Source of the DNA: Arctopsyche grandis
Lineage: Eukaryota; Arthropoda; Insecta; Trichoptera; Hydropsychidae
Direction: 5' to 3'
NCBI RefSeq assembly: GCF_051622035.1
Contig: NC_135361.1
Span: 8,933,001 to 8,997,000 of the forward strand
DNA length: 64,000 bases
The position numbers were made by a program, and so were the translations under genes. Positions 34,364-60,541 of this stretch are shown piece by piece; the first letter of the stretch is position 1; each line of letters starts with the position of its first letter. A model generated the notes under the pieces. It had not been told where the DNA came from. It searched no databases and saw only the letters and a list, made by a program, of their open reading frames with translations.

Positions 34364-35412
34364 CTATTTTGTTATCTTTTTGGTACCAAACGAGGGCGTA
34401 TAATAGCCCAAAGCTAAATCCAATAAAGACACCGGACACATCCGATACTTTCGCTGACAATCCATTTTCGCTTTGCCGTTCCTTTGAGCTGAATCGTACA
34501 AATGATGATCGATGGGCTCCGAAGATAGAACTTCAGACGAGGGTAAGCTGTAATTAATTGGACAAAAATTATTTATATATACCTATCTAGATTATCACAG
34601 TCTTCTAAATCTACCGTAATGAAAATAGCTTCACTCAAATTAAAATTAAATCGTCTCTTTTGACACGCTTATTATTACCTGAACACTTTTTTGAAAAGTT
34701 CTTCTACGAGAGAGCCTCCTGTAGGCATAAGCCTTTGGGAAGCTTCACACAAAGCTCTATAAATGCATTCTCTGCCGCTGTAACCCATACTGAAATCAAA
34801 CACGTAATCCAACTGTGAGTGTCATTCTCAAAAAATTGAATTGATTTCACAATACAAGTGGAATTTGCGACTCACTCGTTCATGATCAATTCCAATTTGG
34901 AATACAAATCCCTTCTGAATCGCCTTGCAACCAAAGGATGTGGGACTTTATTTAATTTTGTGAGAACTTCTATCGTCGAATTCTGATTGGGCAAATCGTA
35001 TGCAATGCCCCAATTCAGGCCCCAAGTGTAAATACCGACCGAAGGTTGGCCCAGAACACCCACAGTCATACAAATAGCCATCTGTAATGCAAAATGTATG
35101 TAAATTTCCAATGAGAGTGTGAGACGAGCTGGTAAAACGGAGCGGGGGAGGGTGGAAAAAAAGTAAATAAATAAAAACGAGATCCTTTTGTGGAGGATAT
35201 ATCCGTTAAAAATTCGTTCGTCTCGAACAAACGAATGATAATGGACTTACAGAAAAGCTAGCGCCCTCTGGAAAAGAGAGATATCGCCTTTTTCGCGACA
35301 ACACTTTGGAAATGTCCTTTTCCATTATTTCAGAGTCTTCAGAGGCGACCGGAAAATGAGCAAGACACGCCAAAAACGCTGCCAGCGCGAACGTCTTCTT
35401 TGTCAATTCCAT
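34364..35412 (-). CDS. DM4/DM12-family secreted protein (220 aa, four exons)
   Basis: Minus-strand exons are 35251-35412, 34876-35081, 34679-34789 and 34364-34547. The frame closes at 663 bases. A signal peptide is clear (hydrophobic MELTKKTFALAAFLACLAHF, then PVAS). SRKRRYLSFPEG at residues 39-50 combines a furin-like basic site with the family's F-P-E-G motif. The next segment has GLNWGIAYDLP, then a second basic site VARRFRRDLYSKLE. The core has C131 and C137 (GRECIYRALCE) and the end has C190 and C197 (DCQRKYRMCPVSLLDL), the usual DM4/DM12 cysteine pattern. The molecular role of the family is unknown to me. A likely 5' UTR intron spans 35429-35979, because a good acceptor sits 16 bases above the ATG and a GTGAGT donor lies at 35979. 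Confidence 0.88.
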
Positions 35413-36762
35413 TCTGAACTTTTAAAGACTGCAAAAAAAGGAAAACACTTTAACAGTCGAGACATAATCAACTTAAGGAACTTTGCTCCGAATCATCGCG
35501 TCGCCGTGAAATTTCAACGAGAATAACAAAATTCGGCTCGACTCGGACTGAATTTATCGAAAGCAGAAAAACGGGTACAATTTTAACCCAACCCTACTTA
35601 TAATAACAAAGTTTCAAATAACATGTTTTCAAAATCTTCATTATATTAAATTGAATTCCTACAAAACCCTTTCCGAAAACACAATCTTAAAGGTCAAACT
35701 TTTCCGTACAAAATATTATCAACCACACATTTTACAAAAACCGCACACCGCTAAGTGTGTCAACAAATACCGTCAAAAATAAATGTAATTTCTTATCAAC
35801 ATCATCACCATTACTGAGCAACCTTCATTCGCAATAAATCACAATTTAAATTCGCTTCATTGTTAAGGAATTGTTCGCGATTATATACATCTAATATAAT
35901 ATAATTTCATCGCTATTACATTAATACAGTTATGTATTTTTAATAAAATAAGATTTTTCTCATGTAATCACATACTCACTTTATTTCGCACTAGGAAGAA
36001 GATCAAAAATCACAAAACTTTTATGCTGCGTGGCGGTTTAATATTATTCGCAGAGTAATTTTCGCACGAATTTGGCGTCTCACGATATTCCGAGTAAAAA
36101 TTACGCGGATACACTAGCTGAAGTTTGAGTTAAACAATTCCATTTATCAACGGCCACTTTCACCATTACTCTGCGAAACGTGTTCGGCTTCAGGGGGATG
36201 GGCGATGTCGAGAAGGAAAAAAAGTAAAATTACACAGCGAAATACACTCACACACACACATACACACGTGCGTATAGATAAAACACTCACACAAGTACGT
36301 AAATGTATATATATATATACAAAAAAGTGGGAAAATTCCGGAAAATTCAGCGGAGGCGGCTAACGGCTAAAAAGATTGAGCTGCCGTCAACGGGATAACA
36401 TTGTTGAAAACGTCAGTCAACTATCGCAGGCTATATCACTCAAGCTTGTGTTGTTCACAATGAACGAACCACGCACTTTATACTTTGAATTTTAAATGAA
36501 TGGTGATGTTATTTATTATTTAATTTAAAAAATCTTAAATCATAAAGTATTTTACTCTCTGGACATCTTTCAATTGAGGATTTAGCAGCAAAAAGGGTAA
36601 ATAGGCTTTTTTAATGATACGCAATTACTGAAAAATCAAGAATTTAATAACGATTTAAAAATGTAGTATCATTTTTCATTGCTTTAGCTTCCCAACAAAT
36701 TGTTACCAATGCCAAATTTATCAAATATTTTTTTGTTTTATGTGATTTTTATTTATTTATTT

Positions 36763-36960
36763 ATTTAACGTTTTGGATCATTGTGGCATTACAAGAAGAA
36801 CCTAATGTGCTACAACGGCCTACATAATAAAATAAGAGAGGGAGAAAACAAAAAAAAAAAAAAATTAATGGATAGAACAAAAAGAAAAGTAAAAAATGAT
36901 ACAGAATTTAACACAATCATATGTTATATATTTTATGTAGAGTGAAAGCATATTTCAAGT
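36763..36960 (-). mobile_element. LINE 3' tail with terminal hairpin
   Basis: A (TTTA)n run on the plus strand, the reverse of an A-rich tail, is followed by TTTTGGATCATTGTGGCATT and AATGTGCTACAACGGCC. This is a mutated version of the hairpin seen at 1407, 8640, 17309, 50069 and 57703. Nothing of the coding part remains. Confidence 0.6.
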
Positions 36961-37226
36961 GAAAATATATTCTCACCAATTCAAGCAGTGATAATGTATC
37001 AAACAATGAATTTACAACGTTTAACTCTATAAATTTAACCCTGACAACCCAATCTTAAATGAATAGGGCCAATCCTTACTTAACGTAACCTAACCTAACC
37101 CTTAAATAATACGAACCCTAACAATCTAATCTTAAATGAATAAAACCAACCCTGTTATGATTTCACTTGTATATATTTTCACTTGAAATATAATTTCACT
37201 GTGACATATATGTACATACATATAAC

Positions 37227-37370
37227 CAGCAACATAGCTCAGTGGCTAGCTTATAGTTCAATCAACATAGGGGTCATAGGTTCAATCCTTGGCCCAGTGC
37301 TGTTGGCCAGACTTTGGATATATGTGAATATAAGTATATCAGAGTTTGTCCATTTTTTTTTTTGATTTCG
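37227..37370 (+). mobile_element. tRNA-derived SINE copy, truncated
   Basis: Box A is TAGCTCAGTGG (37235-37245) and box B is GGTTCAATCC (37279-37288). CTTGGCCCAGTGCTGTTGGC and TATCAGAGTTTGTCC follow, as in the SINE pieces at 2340 and 950. The 3' tail is replaced by T-rich sequence. Confidence 0.75.
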
Positions 37371-38368
37371 ATGTTGAAATTTCACCCGATTTCATTCTCA
37401 CCATTATTTGAATATAATTTACCAAATTTATAATAATAATTTTATAACTTTATACAAAGTACTTATGAACATATGTATGTATTTACGAATTTGGCCGTAG
37501 GTGTCGCCTTGGGACAAAACGTGTAATGAAATTTTTTTTTTAAATACATTAATAAGTATGTATACATGTACATTGTATTTTGTATTTGACCACAATTATG
37601 CATTCGAGACGTTTGTTATGTCAATGTGGTGTTTAATTTTAAAAAAATATATGTATGTCATGAAATTTATTTAAATGTATGAAAGAACCACTCTTATAAA
37701 TAAAGTGGTATAAATTAATTTTTGATATTTTAATAAATAAAATTATCACTAAAAAACATAAATATAAAAAATTTGATATATATATAAGTATTTTGAAATA
37801 AAATACAGATAATCACATCTATAAGGAATTCTTCTTCAGCTTATTCTTTCATTCTTTCATCTCATTATTATAATTTAAAAGAAAAAAATAGCAATGGTCT
37901 TTAAAGTTAAATTTACAGGTAAATGAATACTAAAAATATTAGTATAGTATAATATTTCATATTTAGTACATATATTTTTAATTAAAACACAATAATAGTT
38001 ATTGATATCTACCGCATGTAATACAATTTTTCTGACTAAAACACGTTCTTATAGTTAGTTATCATTTTTTAAACAAATATTATATATGTTCATAAATATT
38101 CTCACATACATCTATAAAATAATATAAAGCATAAAGTTTCAATTATGTAGTATAGGTGTTTAAAATATTTGTCTACCAAAAATGAGGACAAGGAAATGCA
38201 TAAAAATCGCCATAAAATAAATAGAGAATCTACAAACGAACGCATCGGGAAATTTAAAATATGATCAACAACCGAAGAAGTTAATCCAATAAGGACATAT
38301 AAAGTCTAGTTTTTGACGTTGAACAACACTATTGCATTAAAATAATGCTTAAATCACTGGTTTCAATA

Positions 38369-38817
38369 ACACTGTTCGACAAATGACGACTTTTTTATTG
38401 GTTCAGAGACGAAATATGACTTTTCTTATAGAATTATGCCCAGTGAACACGAATCTGGTAATAACAAATGTTGATTGGCTCGAGATTCGGAGATATACAT
38501 ATGTGTTTTATAAATCGCGCAATTTGAACTGGATGACTACTTAGATAGATTTGAAAGCTGAAAAGTACTACAAATGGAAGATAAAATATCCGACTATAGA
38601 TTCCAATATTCATTTTGAACAGGAAATTGACAGATTTTGAGACATCGACCGAACAACACCAAGATATAGAAAAATCGCGCGATTTATAAAACACATATGT
38701 ATATCTCCGAATCTCGAGCCAATCAACATTTTTACTACCAGATTCGTGTTCACTGGGCATAATTCTATAAGAAAAGTTATATCTCGTCTCTGAACCATTT
38801 TTCCTGTCGAACAGTGT
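38369..38817. mobile_element. Fold-back element with ACACTGTTCGAC ends, 449 bp
   Basis: The ends are ACACTGTTCGAC and its exact inverse GTCGAACAGTGT. The arms extend over about 150 bases each: GGTTCAGAGACGAAATATGA, GCCCAGTGAACACGAATCTG and TTGATTGGCTCGAGATTCGG on the left are all mirrored on the right. The centre of roughly 110 bases is unpaired. It has no coding capacity; the open frames over it are mirror images of each other. A half copy lies at 25110-25280. Confidence 0.8.
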
Positions 38818-40115
38818 AATCAATAAATTCATTGATTTAAAGTCACTTCGCAGATTTGCGATAAATATCTGACACCCCATAACTGGCCGTAATAAATAAA
38901 ACTATTGTTAATCTCGATAGTATACAACGATCAAATAAATTAATCTACATATCATATAAAACATAAAATCTGATACTTAAACTGAGGCAAGAAATCCTAA
39001 GCTAGGCCCTACCTAATTTTACCTATGAACACATGGGGCGAGTTCACTATATGTCCATATACTATACATAAGTCCAGGCTATTTTATAAGAATAACCATG
39101 CGATCTATATGTATATTAAATATTGTATTCTTCCGTTTGAACGACGTAGACAAATGAAAAAAAGCCAGTTCTGGAAGCTTTCTCACCGGCAGCGATAGAT
39201 GGCACTGTCAGCGGTGCGGTGCTAGAACAGTTTACAGGCGCAAATTATTTCGGGCCCTTTTTTTCGCAAACCCAATTCGGTTCTGAATAGCTTTTTTAAT
39301 TGGATGAAAAGACGTGCAAAATACGAACAAAACTCTTTTAATTTTATTTTTTGTCTTCGAAAATTTCCATTAAGCGAACCGCAAAGGCGAACTAAATGCG
39401 AACGAAGCGACTAAGGATATTCGAGATGTCCTTTGTACTGACTGAACTGATTGGCTTTTTCCGACATTTCGATGGGTCAATGGCCGATCTAGTCCAGTTG
39501 CGTATTACAGCTCGAAATAACAGTAGTGTTATATAATCTAATTCACAAGTTGAAAATTATTTGAATAAACGATTGAATTCATGACGCATTCCATACAAAA
39601 GTGTGTCACTTGAATTTTCATGGTTATAAATTCATAGGGTCAACTGAATACAGTCGTAAAAAGTTTGAAATAAGTATATATGAATATATTAAAATATGAC
39701 GAAAGCTTTCGGGTTTTATATACATACATGTATTTATGATCTACCCATATATAAACATCACAGAAAATAATAACATTATTCTGACAAAAGACAGAACATG
39801 TTTTATGACGGATTATATCTCACAGACATCAGATGCTACAATTATAAAATATGAGCGTTCATCTAATTTTCTTTACAATTAAAATTAATCATTTTTAATA
39901 TCATATTTAAAAGTTCATAAATATTACACTCATATTTGCATCCTGCTTATTTTATTTTTCCTTGAATGTTTTTTTTCCGTATTTTATTCAATTATTATTT
40001 GGTCATTATTCTTAGTATTATATATGTATGTATGTACATATTATACATTTATCCCATATCTATGTACATATTATACATTTATCCCATATCTATGTAAATA
40101 CCAACATTCTTATAT

Positions 40116-40178
<63 letters not shown>

Positions 40179-42006
40179 CCCCAAAAATTTATCTCGGGCC
40201 CCTAGCGAAGTAAATGCACCACTGGATTTTATACTTATTGTTAATAATTGTTTCTATTTTTAAAAATGAATAAATTTATTAATTCAAATAGTACAAATCT
40301 AAAATGAACTTCAAATAAGAATACACCACAGATTTTCCGAAAAATATTCAAATTTATTTTGGTTAAATAGTTTAATATCAAATACAGTATTATTATTTAT
40401 ATAAATCTCACAGTATTATTATTTATATCATTTCACCAGATTTTCAAAAAAAAAATCATTAAACATCGTTAATTATAGCATCAATTATTGTTCTATTTAT
40501 AAAAAAATACTATACTATGTTTTTTTTTTCACAGGTGCAATCTATGTTTTTTGCCCACTAAGCCGACGGTAGTATGTATATATTGTCATGACACAATACT
40601 TGACAGTTTTTTCAATTAAATGCGGATTAAATGATTTTTATTCGCAAAAAAAATTAAGTACCACGATTTATTTCTAACCTTAATATGTAAATAAGTAACG
40701 TAAGTAATCAGCACGTGAAATTATGAAAATGATTTTGTAGATTCCAATGCTGATTTCTCTCACTACCTACTATTAATCTTTGAAGGACAGAGCGTCGAGA
40801 TCGAACGAGTGTCCGAGTAAGACCCCAGTATTTTTTAATCAAAATACAGCTTTTCTCAATACAAATGGGTTCAATATATATCTTATTAATCATTTTATAC
40901 ATCACCATAAAAAAGTTTTTATCCTATAGCATGTTTTTGACTATCTTTGTATTAAAAAATAACAACAAGCATCAACACGCAAACGCACATAGGTAAGGCC
41001 AACAGGCGACTGCATGGCTCAATAGCCACGCGCCAAAAGCGACGAAAACAATAGCTTACGAAAATAAATCTGTCTGTTTCTCTCGCATTGATTCATCGAT
41101 CAACAAGAATATGTAAGCGAACAGTCAAAAACATGACTTATCGCTACCGCCCATAAATCATAGTTTGAAACGTAGAAATGTATAAATGTATTTTTTTAAG
41201 ATGTACCCCTTACAAAAAAAATTTCTTGTAGTTCATTCTATAAATACAAGAAATATAGGGTGTATAGCTTTGAAAACAACATATTTATTACGAAAAACGT
41301 CAAAATTGGGGCACTTGCATACCCCACTTCGGTGAGGGAGGGTTAAATACAATATGACTAGATTTGAGATATTTCCATATATGAAATAATTTGAGATAAA
41401 TGCTAAAAACGACTCATTTTATTACTAATTAATATGTATGTTAACTAAAGAAACTGTCTGGAATGTGGTATAAAATTTCTACATAATAGAACTGCATTGA
41501 TTTTTTATATACTAAGTGGCTATAAATACCCGAAGAATTCGAACCACCGAATGAAAATATGTTACAAATGTACAAATAAATAAATAACGAAGGTGTTTGT
41601 GGCTGTTGAGATGCTCAGTCCTACATGTGCTATATACGAGTATGTATGTAGGTACACAGAAACGTCGACGAATATTGGATTTCAGTTGTGCCAGTGGATT
41701 CCAATTAGCAAGCGTAAACATGGCCAGGTGTTAAGGAAACGGTCACGGAAACGTCCTCAAACATCACGACTGTTGACAGACCGGTAGGGTAACCGGTTCA
41801 CACGCAAACCCCGGTTAATCGAATAGCAGTGTATGGGGGCTCCAGTTAATGTGCTTCCATTGAACGCATCTGCGCTTGTTTATCCCTGGGAACGATTTCT
41901 TTCTATTATTATTACTATACCCCGAGAAATTCAATTATAGGCAGTTTTCTTTATTTGTTCATACATATGTATATAATATAACCAACTTTGTTTTCTTTTA
42001 TAAAAT

Positions 42007-42640: not shown

Positions 42641-42789
42641 ATATTTTTTTAATATTATTACAAATGGAATGAATTGTTGGGATCGGAGTTTGGTGTTGTG
42701 TTTATTCAAGCTCACACATGTGTATCAAGTCAGTTTATTTACACACAAGCAAAAAAAATAATTGTTTACATAATACACATATACATATA

Positions 42790-42894
<105 letters not shown>

Positions 42895-42914
42895 ATTTGG
42901 AAAGGGTTTCAATT

Positions 42915-45625
42915 TCAAATAACTCTAGCGGAAGACAACAATAGTTCTAGCGGGGAGAATGGGCACTTCTTTTCGCCATTGTATTCGTTGCAATCCTCTA
43001 CTTTGCTCGCTTTTTTATAACGATCATTAGGTCCACCATTTTCTGGAACGCTGAAAAAAAATTACAGAATTCAATAAAGATTTCCCGCACTCGGTACCTA
43101 CGGGTTTTCTTTCGAAACGAAACTTTCTACGTTTTCCTCCCTTTTCCGTCTCGAATCTTTAACAATGTTTTTTTTTTGTTCCAATGCAACGGAAGGGTCG
43201 TAATAATAATTTTATATTATATGAGCATATATATGTAGAACTTTTTGTATAATATGAACAATATATTAAATATTTAATGTGTATCTACAAAATATGTATT
43301 TACATACATATTTAATATATGTATGTACATTTGCTTAAAGAAATAAAATTGGTGTTTAAAAAATATTTTGATTTTTATATTACAAATAATATATGAGCCT
43401 TTGTTTAAAAGTGGTATAAGTCTACTTTTCTTCATTTCGAGAAATATTTCACAAAACATTAAATATAATGTTTTGCGCTTAACAATATTTAAAAATATTG
43501 GCCTGTAGTACGTTTATTCTGCTTTTCCGAGTTTCAAAATAAATGATAACAATTTGTTAATTAAGTCAAACATAAATAGTGTTATTAGAACTGAAAATTT
43601 GACTTCCTCTACTTTCAAATATCATATCACGTTCTTTGAGTTTGAGGTTTGAATAAATTGATATATCAATGAAATTTTGTTATTGTTTCCAATTTTTAAA
43701 TAAAATTTAAGTTGAATTTTGTTATTGTTCTCAAATTCAATCAGATTAAAATGCCAAGTTTCAAAAATAATACAATGTAGAATAGTTGGCTATAATTTCA
43801 AATCACGTATCAGTTCCTTTTCAAAACCACCCATTAAATCCTAAATGTGAAAAATACGATTGGGAAATAAAATCTATAGAAACTTGAAACACTAAACTAG
43901 ATTGAATTTTAAATGATTATCATTTTTATATTCGATCATACTGATTTACTTATCTTCAAAACATTTCCCTGAACAATTATATCAACAATCGTTTTAAAAA
44001 CGCAATATTTAATTGAAACATTCTATTGATTACATTATTTTAATCGAATAAATTGTTTTTTTTTTAATAAAAATCGTACTATCTACTATATAATAATATA
44101 TATTTCAAAATAAATAACACATCTTCAATGCCGAATAAAAGCTACAGACTTTGAAAGCGTGAGTGAAACGAAACTTTATCGTTTGATCCCGCAGTATGTG
44201 ACTGGTATTCAGAGTCCGAAGCCACCCCTCAAATGGGGTCGTTGAGAGCCAAAGGGTAAAAATAGCCCATTCCAGAACTCAAATGGGCCGAAATGAAATA
44301 TAATCCACGGTTACGATCCGTACGAAATATAAATAAACATGCTTAAATACGTTGGAATCGACATTAGACGTAATATGTACATTTAAAAATAAATCCGTAT
44401 TTAAGGAATTAAGACAGAAATTTCCCGTTGACTCTAATATGTAGTCGGCGGTTCAAACTCGTGTTAATTGTGTTGAAGTTTAAAATTTATTACTTTCAAG
44501 ATTGTCCCCTCGCTCGTGCGAGCTATAATGTCTGTTTAGAAACAATCGTATGTTTCAATTACAGCGCACAGACTAACATTACAATTAAGATTATTATTGA
44601 GCTTTGCAAATGAGCGATAAATTTGGGAAACGCCCCTGTTTTTTGATGTCGTGAAAAAAGGCGAAAATTTCGTCGTCGGAAAATTTCGTATTTAATCAAA
44701 CAAGACGCTTCTCAGTCCTCGGGGTTAATTAGTCATAGCTTCCCGTCTTTGCGGATTATCCCACCGGAAGCAGCTGGTGTGTTAACCCAGAGATCCCCGG
44801 AAAAACCACCCGACGCTAACAGTAAGTGGAGACGAAAGGAAAATCTCACCGTATTTGTCACAACACGTGACGACTTTATGACACTTTTTTGTGTGTGAAT
44901 TCAAATCTTACCGTGAACGCGAGAGATGCTGAACACTCAATGGAATAGTAAACTAACACCGTAGCACGCTTTTGGTAAAATAAAATATTACATAATAATA
45001 AAGAATACAATAAAAATAAAAATGATAAGTTAAACTTTTACGTACTGATATACATAATTATAATTGCATTAAAGCACATTTAAAGTCGGGTAGTTTAATA
45101 TTAAATCTAGAAATTCATATTCTTATTAAACCAAACCAAAAAATTCGGATATGACTAATCCACGACTTTATCTAAATATTTAATTGAGGAATATAAGAAG
45201 TATAAAAAAAAGTTCGATACTGAAACATATCTACATATCCATTCACACATACTGGCTATGAGAGTACTTTCGATACGATTTTGAACGCTAATATAGGGAA
45301 ACTCACACAAGACAAAAGTTCTTCTTTCGGTTTTCGGATTTTGTTCAAAATGTATATATATATATATATACATATGTATATATAATTTTTCATTTTGATA
45401 TATTCAGTGGTATGGAAAAAATCATGTGGTCACAACATTTTTGACTTCTCCGAGAAGAAAAAGTCCCACTTCCGGTTAATTAAATTTTTTTTTATCATAT
45501 TGATACATCATATTGATACAAGAATTATGCCTTAATTTTTCTCGCGAAGATCACACATATTCAAAGGGTCAACAGCCAATTCCGGTTAGTGGATGTTCAC
45601 CATATTTTATATATGTATATGTATG

Positions 45626-45698
<73 letters not shown>

Positions 45699-47141
45699 CT
45701 TGGTATTAATGTATTAAACTTAATGTAGATATGAAATTTTAGTTTAATACAACGAAATGTTTTTGAGAAAAACACAAAAAACCTCAATTCTGTAGAGTGA
45801 AAGTACTAATTCCGGTTATGGTAAAAATATTTAAAAATATATTAGGGTATAAAATTTATAATTTCTATTACTCATAGAAAAACTTCTGTCTGATCCGTTG
45901 AGTGGTTTGGGAGATAATTGAATCCAAAAAATTAAAAAAGAGGACATCCACATATGTATGTATGTATATACAAACGGAATGTACCATTTCCGATCAATTA
46001 AAAAAATTAAAAGAAATTTACGTTGTATAGATTAGCATTTCAGTTACTGATACTATGTTTCAGTTTGATATGACAAACAGTGTTCAAAACATCCCAGAAA
46101 TTCACTGACACACATACTAATACACACATTTTTTCTAGATCATGATAACGTAATCAGTAGTCAATTCTGAGTTTGATTTTTTAAAATCAGTCAAAATCTT
46201 GAGATAAATTTTTCACCAATCAGTTCGATCAGTCAAAAGTATTTAGTTCGATTTTTCGCATGATCACAAAACTTAATCTATGTATTGTTACTACGTACAT
46301 AGATAAAGTAAAAAAATAAGAACAATTGCACTTTAAATAAACCAACGTTTCTTCCAAACTTGGCTTATGAGTATTAATACATTTATATACCATGAATACT
46401 TACAATAGTAAAATTCTAACTATGTCTTCAATGAAACTAGCGTCCTTTGGAGCTAACAAATATTTTACTTCACATAGCGCTCTCAATACGCAGCTTTCTC
46501 CATTGAATCCATGTCTGAAAATTGAAACAATCACAGATGAATCTCAACCTTCATGTTATATTATAGTTAAATATTATACGACTTTAATTACACTTCAAAT
46601 GCCCCTTCGATGCCTCTCCATAGTTCCCTTCTCTGCTTATGGTGCAAACCGAGTCGTGGATGTTTGTAACGCAAGAGTTCTCGAAGTCCGGGACTTTTGA
46701 AAAGGACATCATTCTCCAGAGCGATGTTCCATCCAAGTGGGATTCCGATTAGCAGAGCTTTGACGAGCGAGATTGTAATCTGTTTGAAATGACATTAATC
46801 AAATTTAAAGTTTCAATTTCGCGACGAGCAATCAGTCATCGAGGGGGGGTTTAAATATTTTTTAACGAAAGTATACTTGCAACAAAATTACTGCCTTCGG
46901 GAAAGCTCAGAGCTCTCCTCCTCCTCGACAAGAGCACCCCAGAACTTTTAACATTGGGACACTTCGTTTCAATTTCGCCTAAATTACTTTGGTTCGGCAA
47001 CACGAACGATACGCCGTTGGCCCCAATGTCTTTGTTTGTGCAAGAGTTATTATATTCACAATTCCCAGTCTCTCCTTGGCACGGAGACGACAAACTGAGA
47101 AATCTGATCAACAACACCAATAGTCCAACGTCGAGTTTCAT
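42915..47141 (-). CDS. DM4/DM12-family secreted protein (231 aa, four exons)
   Basis: Minus-strand exons are 46881-47141, 46592-46779, 46404-46514 and 42915-43050. They total 696 bases and close in frame. Start chosen: MKLDVGLLVLLIRFLSLSS, a clean signal peptide; an upstream in-frame ATG at 47192 gives a poorer one. The mature N-terminus has two extra Cys. LLSRRRRALSFPEG (residues 70-83) is the basic site plus FPEG, HHKQRRELWRGIE the second basic site. C158 and C164 (ESCVLRALCE) and C207 and C216 (DCNEYNGEKKCPFSPLELL) complete the family pattern. Intron 1 uses a GC donor (GCAAGT at 46875-46880). The last intron is 3.35 kb and carries repeats, so the terminal exon is easily missed. The function of the family is unknown to me. 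Confidence 0.85.
43051..46403 (-). other. Last intron of the 42915-47141 gene, 3.35 kb
   Basis: The donor is GTAAGT (46398-46403, minus strand) and the acceptor TTTTTCAG (just above 43050). It contains part of a dispersed repeat (43405-43635, inverted to 15175-15760), a (TA)n tract (45629-45697) and a region of scattered TTCCGGTTA motifs (45470-45820). A GC-richer patch at 44150-44880 has no recognised content. Confidence 0.7.
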
Positions 47142-48809: not shown

Positions 48810-51800
48810 TCACTCCATTGATGAATTGCATTTCGGATAAAGTTCACCGCAATTTTCCCGAGACAGGTGTGCTTTGTCGTACGCCTTGTGATGCATCGAT
48901 TCGAAGTCCTTGCCGCTGTGTAATCTAAAAAATAAAGAAATATGAAAGAGAATTTGGAATTTTAATATACCCATATATTTTTATAATTTAATAAATTAAG
49001 TAGCTTACGTAAAGATTGCCCTCATTATTTCATCGAGGAAAGAACCTTGTTCTTTTTCATTATCCTGTCCCGTCTCGCAGAGCGCTTTGAGGACACAGTG
49101 TCTTCCGTCGTGACCCATCCTGCAATAAATAAATTACCATTTGACTTACCCGAATTAAAAATTCCCTTGTTATATAATATTTACATAATTTTCGGCAAAA
49201 ATTCCGCATATTGAATTATAATTTCACAAATTATTTAATGCGTCGAAATTTGTCTTAGCTCTTTGGTAAGCATTTGTTTATCAATTGAAAGGTTGAAATA
49301 TTGCTCATAAATATGAAATATATCCATCTTTGATAAAAATGTGCGAATAACTATTCAACTGTTTACTACCAGTATGCCGATTTTATCTGACAGAGATTAC
49401 GAAGACAAATTTTGCATTGCCAAATCAAAGTCAATCCATATTAGTTCCATTTGAGAAGGCAAACGGGAAACTAGATAAAAACTACTTCCTGGAAAATTTC
49501 AACCAAATCAAAGCGATAACATTACACATAAAATAAAATAAATTCACTCACCCCCTAAGTAGTCTCTCAATTTTTTCATACAGAGCACTCCTACTAACCC
49601 TGTGAAATTCGACACTCTTCCAATTCATATTTTTCGATTTTAAATAGTCTCGATCTTCATGTATTGTGTGCATCATTTTCCTATCGACTGCAGTCACGGA
49701 AGCCCTTTTAGATTTTTTATGCAATTCATCGACACTTCTTTTAGCCAATGCTGGATTTATAATGATTTTCCTACGTCTAAGATGCTCTTGACGATTCTTC
49801 CAATACTTCTTATAGCTCATATCGTACTTTTTTGCAAACTGCTTTTTGGCATTTGGTTGGATTGGCTCTCCCGTATATCTTTTATGAAAACAAAATTATC
49901 GGAAATAAACATAAAGAATCACAAAAACGTAAAATCAAGTTTGAAAAATTTATACGATTTCATTCATCTTTCTCAAAGCTTTACCTCATTTTAAAGTTTC
50001 ATCTTACATTCGATACTATTTTATCTATTTTATTGACTTCAATTACTTTTTATTTATCTTTTAAAGCTTGGACCATTGTGGCATTAACGGAATTCCTAAT
50101 GCGCCACAATGGTCAAAAATATAACAGAAAGGAAAAAAAATAATAGCTATATATAAATTAATACATATTATACATACAATTCATAAAATAAATAAAAAAA
50201 TCAAGCAATAGAATTAGTCACATAACATATTTATGAGACTGAAGAGTGAATAAAAATTTCAACTTTCCATCTACATAAATCATCGTCTCTTCCTTTTTAT
50301 TACATACCTCTTTTATGTTTCACTTACTATTACTACTAAGAAAAAAAATTGCCTATTATCCGATCGTTTTTATACTTTGCCATATTGATCATTTTGGTCA
50401 TCAATATAAGTAAAGGTATCATCCGCCATCACGATGGTGAAAAAATATCGTATTAGACGCGTTTGAAAATTCTCCCACGAAGATGTGTCTGACGTTAATC
50501 GCCCAAAATGTTTGGTACCATTGTTCGCCTACTGCGATCGCTTTGGCGTTTTCTTGGTGAATATTTCTTTTCGCCGTTATCTATCTTTGTCAGATTTTAA
50601 TTACTTGAAGCCTATAACTATTTATTTTTATATATATATAAAATGTTTAAAAAACACAAGAAAACTGTGCCTTAATCAATTTAATGAATATAATATATAT
50701 AAAAAGAGACGCGATGTAAATATGTATGTATGTATATACATATATAGAAAAACTTGGATATCGAAAAACCAAATTTTCGATACCAGGAGCAAATGTTGTG
50801 CGTAGAGATAATATTGTAAAATTTAATTAATGTATATGAGTGACGTTGCAACCCAAAGCGTATGATAATTATAATAATGGTATAAAATTTAATTAATATA
50901 ATTTAATTAATAAGTGAGGTTGTGTCCGAAATTGTAGCAATACTAGCGCCCATCTTGACCAATAGGGCGCGTTTAAAAAACCCATTTTTAGATATATTGT
51001 TTTTGTTATATGCGCATGCATAAATTAAATGTTGAGCTCCGCGTCGCGCGAATAAATACGTCGATATAAAAACGAGATATAAAAACGTACGCAATGTACG
51101 TTTGTATATATGTACATGTATTATTAATTACACTGAGCAACAAAAAATCACGTTTTTGAGTTACCAGAGCGGAGACTAGCCAATCTTTACTAAGTTTAAC
51201 CCACTGAATTCGAATATGATATTGATTTTTGTTGGTGGGCGACCGTTTACGAGATATGAGCGTTTAAGAAAATCCGCGATTTTTACAGTTTTTTGGCTTT
51301 TGCGGTCTTTAACTCAAAATTTAAGATTGTTACGCTCAGACTGAGTATTGTAATCAATAGTCAGATATTTTTTCTATTAATTGTTATATTTCATTGCTTT
51401 AAAATACTTCTCATTAATTGTCTAGCGAATTTTAAAAGTCAAAAATATATTTTTTTTTACGGATTTTTTTCCGTGCTATTTTTCATTTATTTGGCAAATT
51501 TTTTATTTCACCAGTCCGACCGCTGTACTCTGTGAGGTGGATTATATGCCATCTCGCTTGCACCTAACATATTACGCGATACAACCATATATACAACGAA
51601 AGCATTTAAATTGCAATTACCGCTTGAGTTAGTACGTTTACATAAAAAAAAATATTGAGTTAGAAAACCAATCCTTATAAACGTGGTGAAATAAAAAATT
51701 TGCTAAATAAATGAAAAATAGCACGGAAAAAAAATCCGTAAAAAAAAATATATTTTTGACTTTTAAAATTCGCTAGACAATTGATTAGAAGTATTTTAAA

Positions 51801-53095
51801 GCAATGAAATATAACAATTAATAGGAAAAATATCTGACTATTGATTACAATACTCAGTCTGAGCGTAACAATCCTAAATTTTGAGTTAAAGACCGCAAAA
51901 GCCAAAAAACTGTAAAAATCGCGGATTTTTTTAAATGCTCATATCTCGTAAACGGTCACCCACCAACAAAAATCAATATCATATTCGAATTCAGTGGCTC
52001 AAATTTAGTAAAGATTGGCTAGTCTCCACTCTGGTATTTTTTTTTTTTTTTTGTTGCTCAGTGTTATTATAATATAATCGATTTCGAGTGCGATTTCTAT
52101 TCTGATTTCGATTTTGATATCGAAGGCGGCAACCTGGGGGGTGGTGGCCGTAAGGGCGCCGGGGGCGCTAGAGGCACTAGGGGCGGTTCCCGACTTTTGC
52201 CGGTTCCCATTTTTTGCTTCGGTTCCAGATCCAGATTGCTGTTTCAGTTCCAATTCTGATTAATTATTACTATACGTATTGTAACTTTATTTTAAATCAT
52301 ATTTCAATTAGTTTCCGAAACCACCCGTTAAAATTTCAACGGGCACAACACTAGTTATTTGATATTAGTCACACACACGGCATCGGTTTTTTTTATTATG
52401 GTCATACTTATCATCCAGACAGAGTTAAAATCTAAGTCTTTGACCTATGTACATATGTATGTCATCTGTTTTTATCGCAGATAAATATTCAACAGCAAAA
52501 ATAACGGAAATTTGTCGAAGAATCGGATAAACAGATCTCGTACAAATTTTCATTGTGGATAAAATTTCATGTCTTACCGATTAATCAATACGTTTTTCAC
52601 CGGCGGTTTCGGATACTTCTCTCCGTCTTTTGTGTCTATATAAGTAATTTGCCCTTTGTCGTTTCTATGTAAAGCGTCTGCGTGATGATTAAAGGGGGAA
52701 TATGGGTCTTGAGGCAGTTGCCAGGCCAACGATGCCGTTGCTCCCATATAAAAAATATCAGCGATTTGTATATTCGTCGAATACGTCAAACAAAACACTG
52801 AAAACAACAAATATACGACTTCAATAGACAATGGATACATTTTTACATAATATAATGTATAAAGTGGGTGTGTTCTCATACCAAGTTGCAGCGAACTGCC
52901 TTCCGGAAAAACGAGATAACGTTTCCGCCTCGAGAGTGCGTTTTTCATTCCGGGTTCGTACATTTCTTCTTGTCTCTGAATCGCTTCTTGTAACGTCAAA
53001 TTGGAATTGTGCAAAACGACTTGACATCGTCCGATAACAAATACATGCACGAGGAGAAATATCTGCAAAAAACTATACACGCCCATATGCAACAT
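48810..53095 (-). CDS. Long DM4/DM12-family protein with basic insertion (328 aa, five exons)
   Basis: Minus-strand exons are 52882-53095, 52578-52797, 49552-49878, 49009-49119 and 48810-48924. They total 987 bases with consistent phases (1, 2, 2, 2). Signal peptide: MLHMGVYSFLQIFLLVHVFV. LSRRKRYLVFPEGSSLQL (about 54-71) is the basic site and FPEG motif. Exon 2 carries an aromatic stretch ending SLAWQLPQDPYSPFNHHAD. Exon 3 is unusual: about 109 residues, very basic (KKYWKNRQEHLRRRK, KKSKRAS), before the family's SRSALYEKIERLL. C262 and C268 (GRHCVLKALCE) and C316 and C323 (NCGELYPKC) follow. The protein stops right after KCNSSME, so it lacks the SLL tail seen in the relatives. Intron 2 is 2.7 kb and holds a 933-bp fold-back. 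The function is unknown to me. Confidence 0.85.
50066..50260 (-). mobile_element. LINE 3' tail with terminal hairpin
   Basis: TTGGACCATTGTGGCATTAA and TAATGCGCCACAATGGTCAA form a 12-16 bp stem with a short loop. AT-rich sequence on the 3' side on the plus strand is similar to the region following the hairpin at 1407. This is the best-preserved hairpin of the set. Confidence 0.65.
51131..52063. mobile_element. 933-bp fold-back element, CACTGAGCAAC family (copy 3)
   Basis: The arms at about 51131-51512 and 51685-52063 are inverted copies with only a few differences, ending CACTGAGCAAC and GTTGCTCAGTG. The two arms even give the same translation on opposite strands ([10 protein letters not shown], then R or K); I read this as a by-product of the palindrome, not a gene. 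The centre of about 170 bases contains GGATTATATGCCATCTCGC. TTA on both sides may be a short target duplication. Confidence 0.85.
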
Positions 53096-53668
53096 TTCTG
53101 AAATTGATTACTCTTTCCGAACGCGTTAAATTGCCACGCACATTTGCCCAAACAAAATCACTTCTAATTACTGTTGATTCAAGCTCTAAATGTATATTAT
53201 TATCAGTGGTTCACTGTGGTGAATTAACGCCGATTATTTATCATTAACGATAGTAAAAGTGGAAATTGTCACGGTTCCATTCAGTTTTGACAGTAAATTT
53301 GACAGTTGTGCGCACTGAACTGACGATATATCGTAACTTTAGCTCGTGTGACAAAGATAAAAAAATACGAAACGTTACTCTCATATTAACAGCCTTAGCG
53401 GAATAATACAGTTAGACGTAACAGATTTTTGTAACGGTTCAATGGTAGTGAATTTCTTGTCTATTCAGAGTAGTGGATGTGGCAAATACGTATTGTATCT
53501 ATTTGCATATTTAAATGTGGACCTATTCAATTATTATAAATAAATATTATTAAGTAGCTGTGGGTTTTAAATTTGTCTTTAAGACATTTCAAAATCTTTT
53601 ATGTCAAAGGATCTTTTTACATTGTATGATATAAAAATATGAACATGATATTAGACATACATACATAC

Positions 53669-54679
53669 GGGCTAGGCGTTCCAAAAAACCGCCCGAAATA
53701 AAAACCGATTTTCGGTTTTCAAATAAAAAGCCGGTTGGCCGGTTTTCACCGGTTTTAGAAAATTAAGATTTTTTTTAAAGTTTAAAATTTTTATATAGAA
53801 AAAAAATGTAAATAGTTTTTTATGAATTAAATTGAGTTATAAACATTATGAACTTTCATAAGATCATTATTTTATATTATTATTACAAATATTACAATAA
53901 ATACAATTTGTATAATATATCACAGCCGTAAAATGGCAGATCCTAAATACGCACAAATAATTAAATGATTTAAATAAGCTACTATCAAGAATATGTTATT
54001 AAAAAAATAATGTGTAACCTCGCAAAAAAACTATAATTATGGAATCGTGAATAAATATTAAGAACTGCCGAGATTCAAAGATATAGATAAAGAGATATCA
54101 AAGATAAAGACATTTCGAAGCTGTTTTTACGCATCTGTTTTAGCTTAAAAATCCAAAAACAAACCGTTGCAAATGTCGGAAAAAAATTCATTTTAAATCC
54201 ACAATAAAAGTAGGTATGTGGCCTTCCAATTCCTTCGAAGAACAATCAATTATATATCGGAAATTCCTATGCATTTTGCCATAAATCATTTAAGTTTAGA
54301 CTACTGTTTTGTTGTTGACAAGTATGTACAAGGATTTGCGATAGTAACATTTTTTTTATATACCTAAAGTTGGGTAGGTCATTGAAATTACATACTTTCA
54401 ATAATAATTTATTGGTCTTCGTCCATTACTAAATCTCAAAGAAACCGCTCAAGAAAGAAAGTGTGTACCTTTTTTTTGTTCAAAGAAATATACGCCTATT
54501 ACCTAAGAGAGTTTATACATAATTTGAAATTCATAATTGTTAATTTTGAGGAAAAAAACATTAATTAAAGAAAACCTTAAAAAGCCGGTTGATCAAACCA
54601 AAGAGCCGGTTTTCGGTTTTTTTGATAAATGGTCAAAAAGCCAGCTTTTCGGTTTCGGTTTAAACCGGCTTGGAAGCCC
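53669..54679. mobile_element. hAT-like non-autonomous element, CCGGTTTT-rich
   Basis: It begins GGGCTAGGCGTTCCAAAAAA and ends AAACCGGCTTGGAAGCCC. Blocks such as AAACCGGTTTT and TTTCGGTTT near both ends are mirrored and resemble ends of known hAT-type elements. The flanks share TACATAC, with the adjoining G making TACATACG on both sides, but the site lies in a CATA microsatellite, so the 7-8 bp duplication is only suggestive. No transposase frame is present. Confidence 0.6.
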
Positions 54680-54743
54680 TACATACGTATACATAAATAC
54701 GCATGTAAATAATAAGCCACATTTTCAAAGGTAAAATGTAGTT

Positions 54744-55170
54744 TACTAGTAGTTTTACCCGGCTTCGCTTAAACATGACTAATCTATGTAATAGTAAACA
54801 TTTTATTAAATTTATTTGAATAGTTTTATTTTATATAAATTTATTTGAATACTCATTTGTTTTTTTATTAAATTGACTGTCACTGTATGTAACTGTCTCT
54901 TTCGAAATTATATATATATATACCAGAGCCTGCGTCCCCGGAGCCTGCGTCCCCGGAGCCTGCGCCCCCGGAGCCTGCGCCCCCGGAGCCTTCGCCCCTG
55001 CCTATGACCCCTAGGGCTTCGCCCCGGGGTCTTCAAATCCTTTGAATCGAAAAAAATCGATTCGGCGCGAATGAATGGAAAAAAAATCGAATTTGTCTAC
55101 GAACTACGAACTACGAACGAAGATTACATATATACATACATACAAAGTATCTTTCCAAATTATATATTAG
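54744..55170 (+). mobile_element. Dispersed repeat (TACTAGT...TTTACCCGG family) with 15-bp minisatellite
   Basis: It starts TACTAGTAGTTTTACCCGGC and ends AAATTATATATTAG, like 42007-42640 and 62902-63122. Unlike those copies it carries five 15-bp units at 54926-55000. Confidence 0.6.
54926..55000 (+). repeat. 15-bp GC-rich minisatellite, five units
   Basis: The unit GAGCCTGCGTCCCCG is repeated five times with few changes. One frame would read Pro-Glu-Pro-Ala-Ser/Pro repeats, but the frame is not part of a longer open frame. It is strikingly GC-rich in an AT-rich setting. Confidence 0.9.
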
Positions 55171-55309
55171 AAGATGTACAATATAAAGTATCTTAACATC
55201 ATAATATAATAATTAATATTTAATTTCCCATATTATGTACATATGTATAGGTCTATGTATGTAATATGAACCTGTATGAAAAATAAACTACATACATAGT
55301 ACGTCTTTT

Positions 55310-55700
55310 AGTGCGTGATTTATCTCCTCAACTTAGGGACGCGTGCTTCTGCGGAAATTTTCAGGTTAATTCGGACGAGGGTGACCATCCGTTGCGAGAG
55401 ATATCATACCAGTTAATAGTTGCGTTATACGAGTTTAATGTTTGAGTAACGCTCCTAGTCCGCTGGTCATTTATATTAGCGGGGCTGTACGCTACACCGG
55501 TTACACCGGCGACAAAGTTAAACTTAGCCCCTTCCCAAACCATCCCGGTTAACAACTAAACTACCCGATAAATTTGCGGCCATCCCTATTGACCGACTTC
55601 TGAGCTTTACCAGGGCTGTGAACCCCAAGGGCTTTGAGCCCCAAATCATGCCGATTTCCATCGCTTCACGTGCAGATTACCGTTCTGTACTCTTGCCAAA
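55310..55700. other. Unassigned GC-richer segment
   Basis: Base composition is clearly higher in G+C than the flanks, without TA microsatellites. A 65-codon minus-strand frame (55361-55555, containing NSYNATINWYDISRNGW) and a plus-strand frame with RLLSFTRAVNPKGFEPQIMP are open but match no family I know. It could be a decayed coding sequence or transposon part. Confidence 0.3.
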
Positions 55701-56284
55701 TCAATTGGATGCATACGATAACAAATTAAGCTAGTATAATATACATATAATAGTCTTACATTCAACCTATTTATTCAGTTCTAAAAATAAAAATTGTATG
55801 CAGATAAATTTTATTTTCATATTATTATTATATTCCCCTCTAAAAAGAGTGATGTGTAAACTTATATTCCGAGTAAACCGGATAAGAGCCCTGTCGCGAT
55901 AATATTTGCATAGGATCGCAAAACTTATTTACATTCAACATAATACAACCCTCACAGAAACATCAGTACTATATCTATACATACTTCAGTTTTGAAGGTT
56001 GATAACACTAATATATAAAATAAAACGTTTACAAATAATATTCCGTGAGCTGTTTGGTCATTTGTTTAACACAATTTGGGAACCGTTAGTTAGAAATTTT
56101 CACTGATTTGTTCCACATTTCCGTTTCCAGTTTGAACTGTATCGCACTGATTTAATCTCACAAGGTGATGTTAGTTGAACATACGTGGTCAATTCGTAAC
56201 AACGGAATTTTCATTGGCGCACGGTGGCGCCGGGAAATTCGTAAAAATTGTATGTGTTTTTGCTGAAAACTTCATTTTTAAATA

Positions 56285-57034
56285 ATGATTCGTAAAGTGT
56301 GGACGTTTAGCTTGATTTTAGCATTGGTAGTTGTATGTGTTTTTGCTGATCAACAACCAAAATCGAGAGTCAAAAGATACCTTAGTTTTTTCCAAAGTTC
56401 TGTCGTCTTTGTAAGTGAAAGTGTATTAATACTAATGAAAATGAAATTAATTACTATATTCAATTTAATTCTTTATTTAAGTTAAATGTCATTTGAAGGT
56501 TCGACTCAACAGCAAACATAATATGGTGGCGGGAACCAGGATATATGCACAAGGAACGGGCTTTCGAGTAAACTTCCCAGTTCCCAAAGGGACATTTCAC
56601 AAAAGGCACAGAATACACAGACGCGACGTTTATCAAAGTTTAGAAGAACTCATTATGCAGTAAGTGAGCACCCGATATTAAATTAAATACAATTTAACAT
56701 ACATTTAATAATTATTGTATTACTTTAATACAAAGTCACGGTTACGATGGTCGAGCCTGCGTTCTCAAATCACTTTGCGAAGCTTCTAAAGTTGTTACAC
56801 CACAGTCAAATATATTGTTGAAGTTATACAAGAAAATTTTCACGTTAGTAATTTCATCAAGATATTCAATATTATTTATAATTATCATTTTCACTTTTAT
56901 ATAATTGAAATTTCAGGATTCCTGAAGGCGATGATCAAAACTATCCATATTTAGCATCCGAAAAATGTGAAGAACTAGATACTCATTGTCCAATATCATT
57001 ACTTCAACTATCGAGATTCACAGATGATTCATAA
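56285..57034 (+). CDS. Small DM4/DM12-family secreted protein (170 aa, four exons)
   Basis: Plus-strand exons are 56285-56410, 56499-56659, 56736-56843 and 56917-57034. They total 513 bases with TAA. The signal peptide is MIRKVWTFSLILALVVVCVF; SRVKRYLSFFQSSV (residues 28-41) is a basic site followed by a changed FPEG motif (FFQS). A second basic cluster is RHRIHRRDVYQSLEEL (about 79-94). C104 and C110 (GRACVLKSLCE) and C149 and C156 (CEELDTHCPISLLQL) match the family exactly. Introns are only 73-88 bases. Its last exon ends 964 bases before the end of the convergent gene at 57998. An AATAAA lies near 57187. The function is unknown to me. Confidence 0.9.
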
Positions 57035-57997
57035 TTTAATATAAGATCAAAATATTATATAAAAGAAATATTTATGTAATGTATTTATATGTATCACCCA
57101 TGTCGTTTTTATTTATTATATTATTTATTATAATTATAAAAAAATATAAATCTGTCTACTGTAATATATTTGTGTTATATTTAAAAATAAACCTATTACA
57201 ATTTTCTACATTTTGATTCCATTATATTTAAATTGTATGCACATATTAACGACAAGGAATCTTATATTAATATATTTTTACTCTTAATTATTAACATAAA
57301 AAATTTTTTATATCACAATTTTCAATGAAAATTTTGTAACTGTTATTACATATATATGTCAAAAAATATTCATACATTTAAAACTTTAAAAACATTAAAG
57401 AAACCGATCTTCCTACATATATCTCTAGACAAATTTAGACAAATTTAGATAAATTTAGACATCCATAGACAAATTTGCAGTATTTATACAAATCAGCGAA
57501 ATTCAAGGTGCTGAAAAAACACTAAATCTTGCGAGAAAATGGAAAAAAGTTTCAATGAAAATCAGATAAATTGTCAAACTCTGATAGAAAACGATCGACC
57601 TGCAATCACATATCCAAGATCTGGCTAGCAGCGACTGGTGGGATTGAACCCACGACCACTTTGTTCGAAGGCATTATTTATTTATTTATTTATAGTACGT
57701 TTTGGACCATTGTGGCATTACAGGAAGAACCGAATGCGCCACAATGGACTACATTTGATAAAGAATTATATGCTAAGCACTAGTACATACATACATATGT
57801 ATATGTATGCTGCTGATATAACTGAATGTATTAAGTGTATTATTTATTTTTAATTAAATTGCGGTGTGTACTGCTCAGTCAATTTAAAAAAATAGACGGT
57901 GGATTATTCGTTATTTATTTCTTAAATTTAAACTTAAAGTCCATAGTAAATTTAATAAATAATTTATTACTTTAATATTAACATATTCATAAGTTAG
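57035..57997. other. Convergent spacer with nested SINE
   Basis: It holds the 3' ends of two genes. AT-rich sequence is followed by a SINE on the minus strand (57553-57790) into which a LINE 3' tail (about 57670-57765) has been inserted. Confidence 0.65.
57553..57790 (-). mobile_element. SINE head split by a LINE 3' tail
   Basis: The SINE body (GATCGACCTGCAATCAC) and box B (GGGATTGAACC at 57640-57650, reverse strand) are followed by (TTTA)n and the hairpin GGACCATTGTGGCATTACAGG with AATGCGCCACAATGG at 57703-57750. The rest of the SINE head (ATGCTAAGCACTAGT) resumes at about 57769. Confidence 0.65.
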
Positions 57998-60541
57998 TTA
58001 TTCTAATACAGATATTAAATCAAACAATCCGTGGCCATTGGGACAGTGTGGATATAATCTTTTACAGTCGTAAAAATTTTCCCCGGCTTTTCTTGCTGCT
58101 CCATAATCAATCAGGCTGTTATCGGAAAATTCATCATATCTCGGTCTGAAACATCCATTCAATTTCAGTTAAAAATGTAAATAATATAATTATTCGTTTT
58201 AAAATATAAATTCAAATTTACTTACGATAAAATATGATGTAGCAGTTCACCGAAATAGCCATCGTGATGAATGGGAGCTTCTGATGCTTCGCATATTGTC
58301 CTCAACATACATTGAGTACCGTTAATTCCCATACTATAATATAAAGTAAAATTCAATTAAAAATAAAATATTTATAATAATAAAACAGTAGTATAATTTT
58401 CTCACTGGTTCATTGAATTTTCCAACGAATGATAAAGAACACGTCTCTCCTGTTCGTATTGTACTAAATCGGTTTCCACATCCCTCTTTCTTCTAGCGAC
58501 ATTCACGTAAGGGAAATATTTATCGAAAAAAGTTATGTTTGGTGGCACTGGATATTGGAATTGAAAGTTAAAACCGAACACTAAACTGACATTAGCTGGG
58601 TTTTTTATCGGAATTGCCCAACCTAACAGCAACTGAAATATTAAAGTCAATTAAGAATTTGAACATTAATATGTACATATCTACTAGTTTTATGCTCGAT
58701 AAAATATCATCGCATTAGCTATGGCATATTAAGTTTTTAAATAAAAAAAATTTAAATAAATATGTCGTTCCTGTGTTCGATCCGTATCGCGGTCATATTA
58801 TTTTCAAATACCTTTTAAATATAATTAATTTAGTATTTATATTTGATTGTATAATATGAAAAAAAAAATGGTTCAAGACCGCGCTAAATCAAATTTCCGT
58901 TATGTATTTTTTATATGGCGTGCCATAAGCAATTTTTAACCTGTAACAGACCAGTAATACACTGATAGACCCGATGAAAATTTAATCGGGTGTATTATAA
59001 GTAAAATCTACCTACCTACCTACCTACATACATATGTATATACATGTGTATACATACATATGTTGTTCCCAACCTTTTTGACGCAAGTCAAAAAGGTTGG
59101 GAACTTGAAGGTTGGGAAAGAAAGGTTGAATTTAAACAGCAATCGAAAGATTAATCAATTAATTAATTAAATAAATTTTCCTAGAGGAAAAATTGGTAGC
59201 AAACAGTATATATATAGAAGTTTTTTCTTGATTTGTTATTATATTTCTACATTTTGTTGACAGTGTTTTAGCTGTGACGTACATACAAACATATGTATGT
59301 CGAATCAAAGTGACTATTATCGTACGGCGAGCGCTATCGCACACAGACACACGCACAGAATATCGCTATTATATGTATATTTATTTATTTATTTTACATT
59401 TTCTACCAGGAAGGCCTTACAGGTGAACTCCAATGCGCCTTCCTGGCCAATTACAAGCAATACAGCATTTTTATTTATTATACAATTCACTGAATAACGA
59501 GACACTGACTTAAACTCGCAATTTAACGAGACATCTGTGAATTGTACATCATTTTTTTACTGTAAATTAATCGTACTCGAATAGTGGTGACACAGTACAT
59601 ACATAGATAGGAAGGATTTTTAGCCAATTTTTAATCGGGAACCGTTTCAACAATGAAATCAGAGAAAATTGGTAAACTCTGATAGAAAACGATCGACCAA
59701 GAGTCATAAATATCCAGGTCTGACCAGCAGCATTACAGATATACTCAGAAAAATTATTTTCAATCGAGGTCAGCTCATGGGATCGAACCCGGCGCCTCTA
59801 AGCTTAAAGACCGAGCTATGCTGCTGGCTAAATGTAATATGTATATGTACATATATGATATAATGCTGCTGGCTATGTACATACATATATGTATATGATA
59901 TTACATTTTTGATACTCCAATGGGTGAGCCTTATATGGATTAAAATTTTTTGATATTTAATATTATTTCAAATATAAAAGCTTCAACCCCTCATCTTCTA
60001 TTTTCAAACTAATGCTATGGATCAAACTAGTGTTATGGATCGTTAAACAAAAATCTAATTTTTAATTGTGTAAAGAATTCAAATGAATGGGATCCTTAAT
60101 ACGAGCACCACTTGAAGGGCGATATACGACGCAACGGTGAACTACTGATCCTTCAGCTTATCCCTAAGAGCCGATAAGAGCTCTTTAGAAGTTTAATTAT
60201 ATTTAGAGGCTATTTATCTCGAAATAGAGGAGGCTGAAGTTGCCGGCTATTCATACGTCTTTTTTTTCGTTCCGTTTCGCAATCCATTGTATCTGAGGTT
60301 GAGTTTTAATGGCTTTTCAAAGTAATTAAGCGCAATTTTATCAGCGGCATTTTTCACATCCGCATGTCAGTTATGAAAATTCAAACGAACCTTGAAAGTT
60401 CCACCTAGTGGAAAAACCAATGGTAAATTCCTCTTCTCTCGGTGGTGTAAGTCGTCGATTCCCGAAAAATCATTTGCGTCCGAACAATACCTACACAAGA
60501 GCCAATACGTTGACAAAACACCAACGATGACAGAAGTTTGC
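57998..60541 (-). CDS. DM4/DM12-family protein, first exon not found
   Basis: Minus-strand exons are 60391-60541, 58406-58632, 58226-58333 and 57998-58145; they join in frame to TAA. The first exon listed begins with an acceptor (TTTTCAG) in phase 2 and has no in-frame ATG before an upstream stop, so a short start exon must lie above 60541. HREKRNLPLVFPLGGTFK is the basic site plus the FP-x-GG motif. LLLGWAIP and a FNFQFQYPVPPN stretch follow, then ARRKRDVETD and QERRVLYHSLENSM as basic sites. The core TQCMLRTICE and the end DCKRLYPHCPNGHGLFDL give the four cysteines (C-x5-C, C-x6-C). Intron 1 is 1.76 kb. The function is unknown to me. Confidence 0.82.
59066..59103. repeat. Hairpin, 14-15 bp stem
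   Basis: CCCAACCTTTTTGAC is followed closely by GTCAAAAAGGTTGGG, with only GCAA between. It may be a MITE relic or a palindrome left by an excised element. Confidence 0.65.
59385..59830 (-). mobile_element. tRNA-derived SINE, full length, minus strand
   Basis: Read on the minus strand: a tRNA-like head (box B as GGGATCGAACC at 59779-59789), the common body (GATCGACCAAGAGTC), GGGAACCGTTTC, and at the 3' end a tail hairpin, AGGAAGGCC and GCCTTCCTGG, at 59409-59443. It has the same order of parts as the copies at 15290 and 42106. Confidence 0.7.

Follow-up and report, generated by a model that had tools for sequence, protein, structure and literature searches.

Nine clustered DM4/DM12 genes of Arctopsyche grandis share a probable convertase site ahead of a conserved LxFPxG motif

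The window analyzed here, a stretch of 64,000 nucleotides from Arctopsyche grandis (Trichoptera; contig NC_135361.1, here G000:C7:8933001-8997000), harbors five genes of the DM4/DM12 family (Pfam PF07841) between positions 34364 and 60541. The gene at 56285-57034 is encoded on the plus strand and the other four on the minus strand, which agrees with an earlier sequence-only reading of this DNA. They are part of a cluster of nine DM4/DM12 genes, g1 to g9, that extends over about 62 kb and has four members past the window edge on the same contig. All nine predicted proteins share a basic motif directly ahead of LxFPxG (site 1), and a second, less regular one (site 2) occurs further towards the C-terminal core. 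The genes are as follows, with window positions for g1 to g5 and contig positions for g6 to g9:

34364..35412, minus strand: gene g1, 220 amino acids; coding exons 35251-35412, 34876-35081, 34679-34789, 34364-34547
42915..47141, minus strand: gene g2, 231 amino acids; coding exons 46881-47141, 46592-46779, 46404-46514, 42915-43050
48810..53095, minus strand: gene g3, the long gene, 328 amino acids; coding exons 52882-53095, 52578-52797, 49552-49878, 49009-49119, 48810-48924
56285..57034, plus strand: gene g4, 170 amino acids; coding exons 56285-56410, 56499-56659, 56736-56843, 56917-57034
57998..60541, minus strand: gene g5, start exon absent from the model; coding exons 60391-60541, 58406-58632, 58226-58333, 57998-58145
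9004.9k (G000:C7), plus strand: gene g6, beyond the window
9009.3-9012.9k (G000:C7), minus strand: gene g7, beyond the window
9024.0k (G000:C7), plus strand: gene g8, beyond the window, start exon left out of the model
9027.9k (G000:C7), plus strand: gene g9, beyond the window

A search of the 475.7 Mb genome (189 contigs) with the PF07841 profile, in which 16 candidates were scored and whose counts are lower bounds, returned at least 11 matches of 59.2 to 32 bits, all above the curated cut-off of 22 bits. Nine are located on the cluster contig between 8,967k and 9,029k, one on contig C12 and one on contig C8. Each of the nine cluster genes has at least one such match, and the family assignment that had been proposed for the five window genes is thereby borne out. 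The assembled proteins match the profile as well (9/9 at E <= 1, best 1.9e-25). One glycine and four cysteines near the C-terminus (C197, C203, C256 and C263 in g7 numbering) are invariant across the aligned nine proteins, whose identity to g7 is 24-35%. The cluster genes are members of a known, large and annotated family, and the earlier suggestion of an undescribed secreted peptide system was too strong; what the domain lacks is an assigned function. In a passage of PMC8664486, 30 Drosophila genes are credited with the corresponding InterPro entry, IPR006631.

Gene models were obtained by joining exons read from three-frame translations, and in g1 to g4 they extend from a start codon (ATG) to a stop codon. 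Both introns that flank the exon encoding the first two cysteines are in phase 2 in all nine genes, and the intron after the FPEG exon is in phase 0 in eight and in phase 1 in g3. An intron of g3 also contains a foldback element (window 51162-52036) with arms of 309 nucleotides that are 96% complementary and 257 nucleotides apart. Gene g2 had come into question as a possible pseudogene, given its non-GT first donor and a motif scan that yielded no tail exon, but this was dropped once a profile of the other tails located the last exon at 42915-43050, 3.3 kb off. This exon scored 16.1 bits (E 0.003) among the six-frame open reading frames of 124 kb, its acceptor, phase and two cysteines fit, and g2 is complete with it. 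The first intron of g2 is probably a GC-AG intron (donor GCAAGT, 46875-46880). The first exon of g7 was located by a profile of the other eight (11.3 bits, E 0.076), and its site 1 reads RHRR. In its favor are the correct strand, an ATG start, a hydrophobic leader and a donor in phase 0, although that donor, GTAACA, is not strong; as evidence it is partly circular, because the search profile contains site 1. Another location for this exon, suggested by the motif scan, was not used. In g5 the short exon that should carry the start codon, already noted as lacking in the sequence-only reading, was not found, and the motif scan offered none. For g8 the scan gave a candidate start exon, MIINRILVS, which is in phase and was not added to the model.

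Site 1 has the following positions in the window genes:

35284..35295, minus strand: g1 site 1, RKRR before YLSFPEG
46914..46925, minus strand: g2 site 1, RRRR before ALSFPEG
52919..52930, minus strand: g3 site 1, RRKR before YLVFPEG
56366..56377, plus strand: g4 site 1, RVKR before YLSFFQS
60430..60441, minus strand: g5 site 1, REKR before NLPLVFPLG

These five strings are the ones that had been read previously. When the nine proteins are anchored gap-free on the [Y/x]LxFPxG motif, arginine occupies P4 and P1 in every protein and lysine or arginine occupies P2 in eight (glycine in g9), while P3 varies (K, R, R, V, E, Q, H, R and H from g1 to g9). R-x-[KR]-R, the classical furin pattern, is found in 8/9 and R-x-x-R in 9/9; without g7 the counts are 7/8 and 8/8. 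Furin specificity would call for constant residues at P4 and P1 and none in particular at P3. Pairwise identity is 0.10 in the eight columns upstream (-13 to -6, which extend into the leader where the pro-segment is short), rises to 0.62 within the site itself (four columns) and is 0.365 over the seven columns downstream. Behind the assumed leader ends the nine proteins contain 13 R-x-[KR]-R motifs, whereas 20,000 composition-keeping shuffles averaged 0.95 and did not exceed 6; earlier, incomplete models had given 12 motifs against 0.87 expected. Nine of these motifs, among them an overlapping pair in g8, have their last residue at site 1, and four are located in the linker between the predicted hairpin and the core. 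No such motif occurs in the 147 pro-segment, 361 hairpin and 889 core residues of the nine proteins. The shuffle figures show that the placement is non-random and not that the sites arose independently; a stronger argument comes from the contrast with the residues upstream, which are not conserved. Because P4, P2 and P1 are conserved, P3 is free and the upstream residues are not conserved, site 1 is probably a convertase cleavage site.

A hydrophobic stretch that may serve as a leader is seen in seven of the nine proteins, as judged by hydropathy (maximum Kyte-Doolittle mean over 11 residues 2.35-3.62). The maxima are low in g5 (1.87) and g8 (0.35), and both of these models are without the short first coding exon. 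Further downstream, a sequon N-x-S/T occurs within six residues after the hairpin in g1, g5, g7, g8 and g9. This count, 5/9 versus 0.23 expected, was not reached in 20,000 shuffles, with a six-residue window that was picked after viewing the sequences. The placement of the sequons fits passage through the endoplasmic reticulum (ER). For the structure, AlphaFold2 was run on the isolated second coding exon of g5 together with eight relatives. The resulting model has a mean predicted local distance difference test (pLDDT) score of 65.6 and a predicted template modeling (pTM) score of 0.30, which is too weak for a fold search. It places strands at residues 2-9 and 17-24 (block pLDDT 54-57) and a helix at residues 41-74, with a pLDDT of 55 in residues 41-50 and of 77-92 from residue 51. 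The boundary RR pair is positioned within the helix, in a block of pLDDT 92, and the RRKR upstream of it in a block of pLDDT 55. No PDB chain matched g1 at E <= 1.

The candidates for site 2 in the window genes are:

34911..34922, minus strand: g1 site 2, RFRR before DLYSKLE
46627..46638, minus strand: g2 site 2 candidate, KQRR before ELW
49590..49601, minus strand: g3 site 2, RVSR before SALYEK
56610..56621, plus strand: g4 site 2, RIHR(R) before DVYQ
58483..58494, minus strand: g5 site 2, RRKR in the linker, 14 residues before the core

R-x-x-R occurs in 8/9 linkers versus 1.2 expected and R-x-[KR]-R in 4/9 versus 0.16 expected; neither count was reached in 20,000 shuffles, with hairpin ends set by eye and with g7 and g2 then incomplete at ends outside the linker. 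The linkers of g3, g4, g7 and g8 contain the minimal R-x-x-R only, and that of g2 contains KQRR only, without R-x-x-R. Site 2 had been described as lying in matching positions and as altered in the long gene, g3. Both statements had to be corrected, as only g1, g3 and g4 have the linker R-x-x-R at the helix boundary, g5 to g9 have it at varying places further upstream, and g3 retains RVSR. More constant in place is a single arginine four residues before the helix tyrosine (tryptophan in g2), which is present in 8/9 and missing in g6; an arginine three residues before this tyrosine or tryptophan is found in g1, g3 and g4 only. The preference of the family profile at these two positions was assessed with substituted copies of a C-terminal fragment of g1. 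With arginine the fragment scores 77.2 bits against PF07841, versus 75.4-76.0 bits with the eleven other residues tested at profile position 1 and 75.2-76.6 bits with the eleven others tested at profile position 2. As controls, alanine in place of the aspartate at the next position gave 76.2 bits and alanine in place of the helix tyrosine gave 70.1 bits. Arginine is thus the best tested residue at both boundary positions, by a margin that is about that of the neighboring aspartate and far below that of the tyrosine. This preference fits cleavage and a structural role alike, and the arginine at the helix boundary may be structural.

Pro-protein cleavage as proposed in the sequence-only reading is well supported at site 1 (P4 and P1 9/9, P2 8/9, P3 free, upstream residues unconserved). 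Site 2 is weaker: the motif moves, the full consensus is reached in 4/9 and the boundary arginine is mildly favored by the profile. There may be a second cut here, which would separate a middle peptide from the core. The proteins might be cut at site 1 alone, with structural basic residues in the linker and at the helix boundary, and with a mature chain that consists of hairpin, linker and core. This account, which overlaps with the interpretation favored below, has about an even chance of being correct. It is consistent with a linker motif that has no fixed place and with a boundary arginine that the profile mildly favors and that has an adjoining arginine only in g1, g3 and g4, and also with the model of the isolated g5 exon (pTM 0.30), which sets the boundary RR inside a helix. 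The linker counts of both motifs, far above expectation, argue against it and for the earlier proposal that both sites are cut in every member to give a propeptide, a free middle peptide and a core. No cysteine is common to all hairpin segments, and thus no conserved disulfide would retain such a middle piece. Cleavage at both sites throughout is nevertheless unlikely, considering that g2 offers only KQRR, that four further members offer only the minimal R-x-x-R and that the positions vary.

The basic cluster could also be left uncut and serve as a topology signal ahead of a membrane segment, which we consider improbable. Behind site 1, the most hydrophobic stretch of 19 residues scores 1.46-1.97 in g1, g2, g5, g6 and g9 and exceeds the usual cut-off of 1.6 in g2, g6 and g9, and a table note on planthopper Osiris proteins in PMC12825958 names DM4_12 a transmembrane domain. 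In g3, g4, g7 and g8, however, the values are only 0.65-1.15, and in g4 and g8 the best stretch is part of the core. The segment is moreover predicted as strands, with low confidence, and a topology signal has no need for arginine at precisely P4 and P1 while P3 varies. A membrane helix would thus not be general to the cluster proteins, but is possible for g2, g6 and g9. Finally, as all copies are paralogues of one cluster, the motif might be inherited baggage of recent duplications that is under no selection. Proteins that are only 24-35% identical to g7, and that share 10% identity with one another immediately ahead of the site, make this very hard to believe.

The interpretation that we favor, with a probability of about two in three, is that the cluster genes encode secreted DM4/DM12 pro-proteins that are cut at site 1 and whose mature part would act outside epithelial cells. 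The leader visible in the sequence would take the chain into the ER, and a furin-type convertase would then cut after R-x-[KR]-R, about 8 to 54 residues behind the assumed leader ends. To judge from the P4/P2/P1 pattern, this cut would leave LxFPxG as a new and conserved N-terminus ahead of a probable beta-hairpin. The variable linker, which would often be glycosylated at its start, might be cut as well in some members and thereby split this segment from the four-cysteine core. The mature protein would most likely act outside epithelial cells, for example in the cuticle or another apical matrix, as suggested mainly by an expression table from the honeybee. In this table of InterPro terms enriched with larval age (PMC9764631), DM4/12 stands beside cuticle and chitin-binding terms, with 9 DM4/12 genes that change with age in the controls and 10 in the infected larvae. 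The epithelial extracellular matrix is our best guess for the site of action. CG13616 and CG33342, which we take to be DM4/12 genes, bear on the same point. Both are included in a list of dsx-affected genes in PMC2656526 that also contains cuticle proteins.

Several points weigh against this interpretation. All sequences are paralogues of one genome and are not independent, a kinship that the shuffles ignore, and site 1 of g9 reads only RHGR. The case for a matrix role comes from co-regulation in a different insect, and a role in signaling or in the gut would be equally compatible. DM4, furin and four gene numbers ascribed to fly members of the family are all absent from the main text of PMC4883753, a study of wing cuticle genes in the fly.

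A literature search, for which the slash in DM4/12 was unsearchable and subscription journals were mostly uncovered, found no report linking DM4/12 to convertase cleavage. In the publications found (PMC8664486, PMC9764631, PMC12825958), the function of the domain is called unknown or passed over.

A broader and doubtful extension is that DM4/DM12 as a whole (about 30 members in the fly) is a family of convertase-activated secreted factors that has not yet been recognized as such. The cut at site 1 would expose a hairpin segment that is hydrophobic and, in many members, glycosylated at its end. This segment would then be released or kept as a second chain beside the four-cysteine core, and the products would be ligands of two chains or units for matrix assembly. 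DM4/12 is among the more frequent domains in fly genes without an assigned function (PMC8664486). Were a sharply conserved convertase site common to the family, its biochemistry could be put to the test, namely the mature N-terminus, the cutting enzyme and the number of chains. Constructs and antibodies would then also have to be designed with regard to the site.

Outside the cluster, two divergent paralogues are located at G000:C12:24691200-24692038 and G000:C8:33254914-33255237. The linker of the C12 paralogue contains RRGKR before the helix, which satisfies R-x-K-R; in that of the C8 paralogue, read from the translation, no motif of this type was seen before the helix. The first exons of both were not found. 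Searches of other collections, which are not meant for insects and are thus uninformative on orthologues, gave no relatives: the g1 protein returned 4 pattern-matching stretches from viral contigs, and the conserved exon pair of the C12 paralogue returned 197 stretches from bacterial genomes and 19 from viral contigs. Upstream of the cluster, the window contains exons of a nicotinic-type acetylcholine receptor subunit (7732-8115 and 20795-21727, plus strand; PF02931, PF02932), which probably belong to one gene and in which a vicinal cysteine pair was read. DM4/12 genes of the fly are also found near nicotinic-type acetylcholine receptor genes. A GC-rich tandem array of 4.9 copies of the unit GAGCCTGCGCCCCCG is located at 54926-54998 in AT-rich surroundings.

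The proposed layout of leader, pro-segment, R-x-K/R-R and mature part is known from convertase-processed insect pro-proteins such as attacin precursors and from zona pellucida (ZP) matrix proteins. The likeness is one of layout only, and no sequence relation is claimed. The planthopper proteins Osiris 17 and 24 carry an added DM4_12 domain, which is described in PMC12825958 with four conserved cysteines. The cluster proteins differ from Osiris proteins in that DUF1676 is not among the six families that the nine matched (E <= 1). With the DM4/DM12 family (PF07841, IPR006631) they share both the profile, matched by all nine, and the domain in which the glycine and the four cysteines are invariant here. 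The Pfam model, however, starts at the helix boundary, so that the leader, site 1 and the hairpin of g1 to g9 fall outside it. The family itself is known; of interest is the clean convertase signature in all nine members of the cluster.

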